A model generated the notes under the pieces. The model was not told the DNA's origin. It saw only the letters and a program-made list of their open reading frames with translations, and made no database searches. A program made the position numbers and the translations under genes. From positions 1 to 51,855 of the forward strand of contig JACQXE010000017.1 in NCBI GenBank assembly GCA_016208915.1: DNA of 51,855 nt. The letters run 5' to 3'. The stretch's first letter is position 1. Each line of letters starts with the position of its first letter. Source of the stretch: Nitrospirota bacterium (lineage in GTDB: Bacteria > Nitrospirota > Thermodesulfovibrionia > Thermodesulfovibrionales > UBA1546). Of this stretch, positions 13,493 through 14,791 are shown one piece after another.

Positions 13493-14791
13493 TTACTTTC
13501 CAGTTTTACTAATGCTTACCTTCTTTGAAAACTTATTCCAAAGGAATCCATCAGCCTCTTTTGTGCCATATGGCATATACCAGAGTTCAACATCTATGGT
13601 CATCTCATGAGCGAGAAATTTCCTTACTGTCTTATCTCCCTCTTTCACATCCTCAAAAGGGAAATTAATCTCGAATTTCTCCGAAACGGTTTTATGCGGC
13701 GGCAGGCTTGAATCGCGGACTATTCCGCTCTTCTCATAAGGTCCCCTGCCCGTCCTATCTCCACGGCCAAGCTGCTGGGGTATTGGCATGTATATCCTTG
13801 ACTGCTTGAAAAGCTCTTTTCCTTCAGGTGTCTTTGCGGTCACTTCCAGGACCACTCTGTTCGGAGTTGGTCAGCCGTCAGGGATTGCATGACCAGCATT
13901 ATTGGTCAATTCAACCTTTACAAATGCCTGCGGTATTATCTTAGAGCCGTCCCTCCAATAATGGCCGTAGGCTTCGACATCAAAGTCTATAGCCATTTTT
14001 GCCATTTCAGGTGATCTGTAACTCTGCATATTATGGCCGAGCTTGCTCTTCTGGATATGGCATTCCTGGCAAGTTTCAGTGCCGCCCTCTGCCCTGTATG
14101 ACCAAAGATAGCTTCCATAAAGAGTTGCGCATTGAGTGGGGTTTTCGAGTTCAAAATTAGGCCCGAGGCCATGACACTGCCCGCATAATATGGACTCCTT
14201 CATAATCTTGCTCTCTTTCATTACCGGATGAGAAGGGTCTGAATGATCGCCGCTCTTGGCGCCATAAACAGCATTATTTTCAGGATATCCATCAGTCCAT
14301 TTGTGAATTATTGCATTTCTGTTATGGCATATAAGACAGCCTATGTTCAGTTTCTGGAGGTTTTTTGATGCATCATCACCTATCTCTTTAAAAGCATAGA
14401 GGTTTTTGACAATTTCATAGGCAACGCTGTCTTCAGACTCTATAAGCTGAGGCAGATGACACTTGGCGCATATCATAAAGTGTTTAATCTTAACATCTTC
14501 TGATTTTTTTACCCCTGAGTTTGGCCATTCCTTCAATCCGTTTTCTATTGTGGTTTTAAAAGTTGCAGCAGTCCTGCCGACAGAGACAACCCCAAAGATT
14601 GATCTGGCGTGCAGTGATTTTTCCCACTGTTCGTAGATATCAGGATGACACTCCTTGCAGGAATTTGAGTCGTACATTGCTGCAAGTTCATCTATAGTTT
14701 TTACCTTTTTCTTGGCTTCGGTCTGATCTCCATAGGAACTCAGCGGCAATATCATTAATATTAAGACTAAAATAAATCTCAAAAAGCACAT
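13493..14791 (-). CDS. Five-heme cytochrome c with in-frame TGA (possible selenoprotein)
   Basis: Read through the TGA at 13871-13873 this is a 432-residue exported protein: signal peptide (residues 1-21), five CXXCH heme sites (Cys 45, 108, 152, 203, 241) and a C-terminal beta-rich domain without hemes. The frame before the TGA ends AGHAIPDG and continues PTPNRVVLEV directly after it, without frame change or loss. A short GHxIPDG-x-P stretch with Cys at x is what I would expect in relatives, so TGA would replace Cys by selenocysteine at residue 307. A SECIS-like hairpin follows at the right distance. The protein probably carries electrons in the periplasm. Alternatives are a nonsense mutation or a sequencing error. 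Confidence 0.75.
13836..13855 (-). promoter_or_regulatory. Candidate bacterial SECIS hairpin
   Basis: Fifteen bases after the TGA the mRNA can fold GUGGUC-CU / AG-U-GACCGC (one bulged U) with apical loop GGA; the loop begins 23 bases after the TGA. Bacterial SECIS elements have an apical loop starting roughly 16-37 bases after UGA with G near its start, which this meets. A competing stem (13850-13872) can also form, so this is a candidate only. Confidence 0.45.

Follow-up and report, generated by a model that had tools for sequence, protein, structure and literature searches.

Among the closest described systems is ExtKL of Geobacter sulfurreducens, a putative selenocysteine (Sec) cytochrome with five hemes whose gene belongs to the extHIJKLMNOPQS cluster (PMC5877670; PMC6148476), and which is annotated in Geobacter records as two genes, extK and extL (GSU2937 and GSU2936; PMC6148476). 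In Geobacter, the loss of the neighbouring porin ExtI impaired selenite and tellurite reduction, and the statements made about ExtKL and chalcogen oxyanions are preliminary (PMC5877670). The corresponding family, NF040886 ('multiheme c-type cytochrome (seleno)protein ExtKL'), is listed among prokaryotic selenoproteins by a 2026 review (PMC13188914); the main text of a 2016 survey cited by that review names no cytochrome. Additionally, structures of MccSep, a 'Multiheme cytochrome c selenoprotein', have been deposited in the PDB (9wt8, 9wta and 9wtb, with the U325A variant as 9wt9). The sPHC pentaheme cytochromes of cable bacteria have been described as structural homologs of ExtKL, one of them with the same two-gene structure (PMC11976967); they are set beside the protein studied here by description only, and selenocysteine is not mentioned in the paper that describes them.

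The gene analyzed here lies in a 51,855-nucleotide stretch of a Nitrospirota genome, referred to below as the window. Its product matched NF040886 over residues 6-427 with 597.1 bits against a cut-off of 250, and a search of PDB sequences placed its residues 28-432 on residues 41-450 of MccSep (E 1.7e-179). The two proteins align end to end, although their sequences are distinct and differ by a few short insertions and deletions, and residue 325 of MccSep, the position mutated in 9wt9, falls on residue 307 of the protein here. The likeness to Geobacter ExtKL comprises a full-length match, five hemes and a Sec/Cys site after an HxIPDG motif, but the gene here is found outside an extHIJKLMNOPQS cluster and its host is no Geobacter. 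An earlier note, made from the DNA letters of this locus, had read the gene as that of a multiheme cytochrome that may contain selenocysteine. The identity of the residue as Sec was supported by the analyses described below, and the one correction concerns novelty, as the family is already catalogued as NF040886, structures have been deposited for MccSep and the Geobacter literature describes a member; the finding thus holds, but belongs to a known kind. A multiheme cytochrome containing selenocysteine represents rare chemistry outside the cytoplasm, and ordinary annotation would split such a gene in two.

The reading frame across the TGA and its relatives

Under genetic code table 11, the locus contains two open reading frames (ORFs) in the same frame, one at 13871-14791 (306 aa, ending in ...NNAGHAIPDG) and the other at 13493-13855. 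When TGA is translated as U, both ORFs fuse with the frame unchanged into a 432-residue protein in which U is residue 307. The five-heme frame that the earlier note had described as running open through a single TGA was therefore recovered as one ORF with five CXXCH motifs. The features of the locus and the evidence for each are collected in Table 1. Residues 1-21 are probably an export signal, as suggested by their hydrophobic sequence and by the model, and the protein is probably a periplasmic electron-transfer protein. Past the readthrough stop, the inverted repeat that separates this gene from the next one is terminator-like in both directions, and its position fits the true end of the transcript, as expected.

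Table 1. Features of the ExtKL-family locus, in window coordinates.
Feature	Coordinates	Strand	Evidence or remark
ExtKL-family pentaheme cytochrome c selenoprotein gene	13493..14791	(-)	432 aa; ORFs and TGA=U translation, NF040886, MccSep match
N-terminal hydrophobic stretch, residues 1-21	14729..14791	(-)	read from sequence; helix 3-19 in model
Heme-binding motif CKECH, residues 45-49	14645..14659	(-)	invariant in 43 rows
Heme-binding motif CAKCH, residues 108-112	14456..14470	(-)	invariant in 43 rows
Heme-binding motif CLICH, residues 152-156	14324..14338	(-)	invariant in 43 rows
Heme-binding motif CGQCH, residues 203-207	14171..14185	(-)	invariant in 43 rows
Heme-binding motif CQECH, residues 241-245	14057..14071	(-)	invariant in 43 rows
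Invariant His301, six residues ahead of Sec	13889..13891	(-)	His in 43/43 rows and in cytochrome c552 5ze8
In-frame TGA read as selenocysteine 307	13871..13873	(-)	only TGA/TGC/TGT in 114 members; aligns with MccSep residue 325
Bacterial SECIS hairpin GUGGUC-CUGGAAGU-GACCGC	13836..13855	(-)	synonymous freeze and stem pairing seen in TGA forms, not Cys forms
Stop codon of the gene, TAA	13493-13495	(-)	
Perfect 19-bp inverted repeat, 4-nt loop	13446..13487	(-)	5 nt past readthrough stop; terminator-like

A scan of GTDB species genomes identified 20 relatives with 55-68% identity, which came from Nitrospirota, Desulfobulbaceae, one Desulfuromonadaceae bin and one Terriglobia bin. TGA was found at exactly the same place in all 20 of these independently found relatives, which rules out a sequencing error, a pseudogene or a frameshift. 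In the 114 family members alignable across the site, where some loci represent one gene present in two collections, the site codon was TGA in 91, TGC in 14 and TGT in 9, and no other codon was observed. The prediction that Sec here takes the place of a Cys expected after IPDG agreed with these homologs, as they carry either TGA or a Cys codon.

Family members were also detected with the NF040886 profile in 115 of the 396 sampled genomes of the Nitrospirota phylum. Such a wide spread in the phylum, without conserved ext-type neighbours in the relatives examined, was not found in the literature examined. On a tree of 43 proteins, four changes between Sec and Cys are needed, and at least three of them are forced by well supported branches, which indicates repeated exchange between Sec and Cys. 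Both forms are present as paralogs in some genomes, and a search of plasmids for the family returned one distant partial match and nothing else.

Two family members (L087 and L066) contain one TAG besides the TGA and may be pseudogenes or assembly errors. In UBA665, a partial second ExtKL copy (L013:3-341) lies directly upstream of the full copy as a tandem duplication. The relative in the Terriglobia-labelled bin (L025) is of the TGA form, and reflects either inter-phylum transfer or a mis-binned contig.

A hairpin tied to selenocysteine and the decoding machinery

The hairpin with a GGA loop that the earlier note placed 15 nt past the TGA was present as claimed. It consists of six pairs extending from +18 to +37 (with the T of TGA as 0), leaving a spacer of 15 nt, and its GGA loop occupies +26 to +28. 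Taken alone, the fold energy of this single sequence was unremarkable (56-nt z = +0.99), and no family was matched when the window and the site were scanned with Rfam. A lone sequence thus gives no proof of the hairpin, and it is the comparison among relatives that supplies it.

For this comparison, near-copies were removed, which left 73 TGA forms and 22 Cys forms, and synonymous identity was defined as the occurrence of the same codon among sequence pairs sharing the amino acid, with the mean elsewhere as background. At codons +6 to +11, which cover the hairpin, synonymous identity was 0.87-1.00 in the TGA forms against a background of 0.42, and 0.17-0.54 in the Cys forms. All six stem pairs were formed in 38 of the 73 TGA forms versus none of the 22 Cys forms, and the pairing was lost when the 3' arm was slid by one base or more. 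Compensating changes in the stem were also observed, for example GUGAUC/GAUCGC in L127 and GGUA/UAUC in L017. As judged from these alignments, the synonymous constraint acts on the RNA, is tied to Sec and vanishes with Cys, which is the footprint of a bacterial SECIS element; the hairpin, earlier noted to lie within SECIS range, is in fact conserved at the RNA level in TGA forms only. This contrast, with synonymous sites released from the SECIS constraint once Cys replaces Sec, was not found in the literature examined.

The genome to which the window belongs (2.51 Mb in 88 contigs, 98.8% complete) encodes SelA, SelB, a tRNA-Sec with anticodon UCA, and SelD, so that all of the sel genes whose presence the earlier note had proposed as a check were found. 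Across the phylum, SelA was detected in 95 of 101 genomes with TGA forms versus 80 of 295 other genomes (Fisher p ~1e-34, uncorrected for relatedness), and the six TGA-form genomes without detected SelA are all incomplete drafts. A loss of the Sec machinery in genomes carrying only Cys forms was considered and rejected, as SelA is kept in 12 of 13 of them. Separately, the selD gene of the window's own genome (L031, contig C18:13866-14783) contains an in-frame TGA, and selB is found on that contig at a distance of about 10 kb; selenophosphate synthetase (SelD) is probably itself a selenoprotein.

Altogether, the protein is almost certainly a cytochrome of the ExtKL/MccSep family with UGA 307 decoded as selenocysteine, a reading whose support is as strong as sequence allows. 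Were the TGA an ordinary stop, the locus would encode a 306-residue cytochrome and a separate small downstream gene, which is what standard gene calling yields and how the Geobacter records present GSU2937 and GSU2936 (PMC6148476). This is very unlikely, since Cys-form relatives are single unbroken proteins across the site, the site codon is never TAA or TAG, the frame, the protein similarity and the Sec-specific hairpin are all conserved past the TGA, and MccSep was deposited as a single chain. Decoding of the TGA as another amino acid, either Trp (as in a code-4-like code) or through near-cognate readthrough, would account for the open frame and nothing more, and is extremely improbable given that relatives lacking the TGA always carry a Cys codon, with neither Trp nor Arg observed, and that the genome contains tRNA-Sec, SelA, SelB and SelD. 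The draft state of the genome, with its 88 contigs, might also suggest a Cys codon turned into TGA by a sequencing or assembly error, but the same TGA is seen in more than 70 distinct genes from many assemblies and is coupled to the hairpin, which makes the chance of such an error negligible.

Heme motifs, fold and a proposed role of the selenocysteine

The residues invariant across the 43 relatives comprise the five CXXCH motifs, Trp56, Pro114, Cys221, Gln242, His253, His301 and the Sec/Cys site. His301 is a probable distal heme ligand, as suggested by its conservation and by the model. Only four histidines outside the CXXCH motifs (61, 183, 253 and 301) are well conserved, versus five hemes, which suggests that one heme may have another ligand or an open side. 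The AlphaFold model of the protein (mean pLDDT 86) shows a helical heme domain with a beta-sandwich at the C-terminus, and the Sec loop comes directly after His301.

A fold search with this model identified the penta-heme cytochrome c552 of Thermochromatium tepidum (PDB 5ze8) with a Z score of 22.8 and an rmsd of 3.3 over 308 residues. The two proteins have a common fold, and both contain the H-x-x-P-x-G loop and an equivalent of Cys221, but they are only 21% identical and c552 has Ala at the place of Sec (HAMPTGAP). As c552 keeps the His and the Cys221 equivalent but carries Ala at this position, Sec looks like a family-specific element on a wider electron-transfer fold. The same observation weakened a candidate redox pair between C221 and U307.

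In the mechanism that we propose, SelB carrying Sec-tRNA(Sec) would bind the hairpin 15 nt downstream of the TGA, and the ribosome would consequently read UGA 307 as Sec, as indicated by the comparative evidence. The helical domain would hold the five hemes, while the C-terminal beta-sandwich would provide His301 as the probable distal ligand and, six residues on in the same loop, the Sec residue, an arrangement suggested by conservation and the model. The heme wire could then pass electrons on to a reactive selenol next to one of the hemes, and this selenol would constitute a redox or substrate-binding site, plausibly for selenium, tellurium or sulfur oxyanions. We give a catalytic role of the selenol about an even chance. 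The proposal of chalcogen oxyanions as the substrate is tentative, as it is drawn by analogy solely from the Geobacter literature, namely from one study in which the gene deleted was that of ExtI and not ExtKL.

Alternatively, the protein may be a selenoprotein in which Sec is no substrate site and instead ligates a heme or plays a structural or redox-sensing role. The shortage of well conserved histidines relative to the five hemes and the location of Sec six residues from H301 are consistent with ligation; conversely, the invariant Cys221 would be an equally good candidate ligand, and the Ala at the Sec place of the same-fold cytochrome c552 implies that heme binding there needs no Sec. On balance, we consider this role of the residue possible but rather unlikely.

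Gene context and a second copy

Next to the gene lie genes for TPR, C39 peptidase-like, DUF6627 and JAB-domain proteins, and no ext genes were found beside it in the window. No conserved neighbour was identified across 22 loci from Nitrospirota and Desulfobulbaceae relatives either; the gene context is thus uninformative as to the substrate.

The window's own genome contains a second ExtKL paralog with an in-frame TGA on another contig (C74:4527-5663, L129; also L036:1552-2697, minus strand), in which the site reads AGHRIPDG-U-PSHNR. Outside Geobacter, the family may represent a periplasmic selenoenzyme that stands alone, has been duplicated within genomes and has switched repeatedly between Sec and Cys; its Sec, next to the heme-ligating His and perhaps together with the invariant Cys221, would form a catalytic Se-heme site for sulfur or selenium compounds. 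We regard this account as speculative; the sulfur-carrier genes of ThiF and TusA type next to the second copy point in its direction. The neighbours of this copy are members of the ThiF and TusA families and a gene for a small unassigned protein that looks DsrE-like by eye (with no Pfam match), which suggests a possible link to sulfur transfer.
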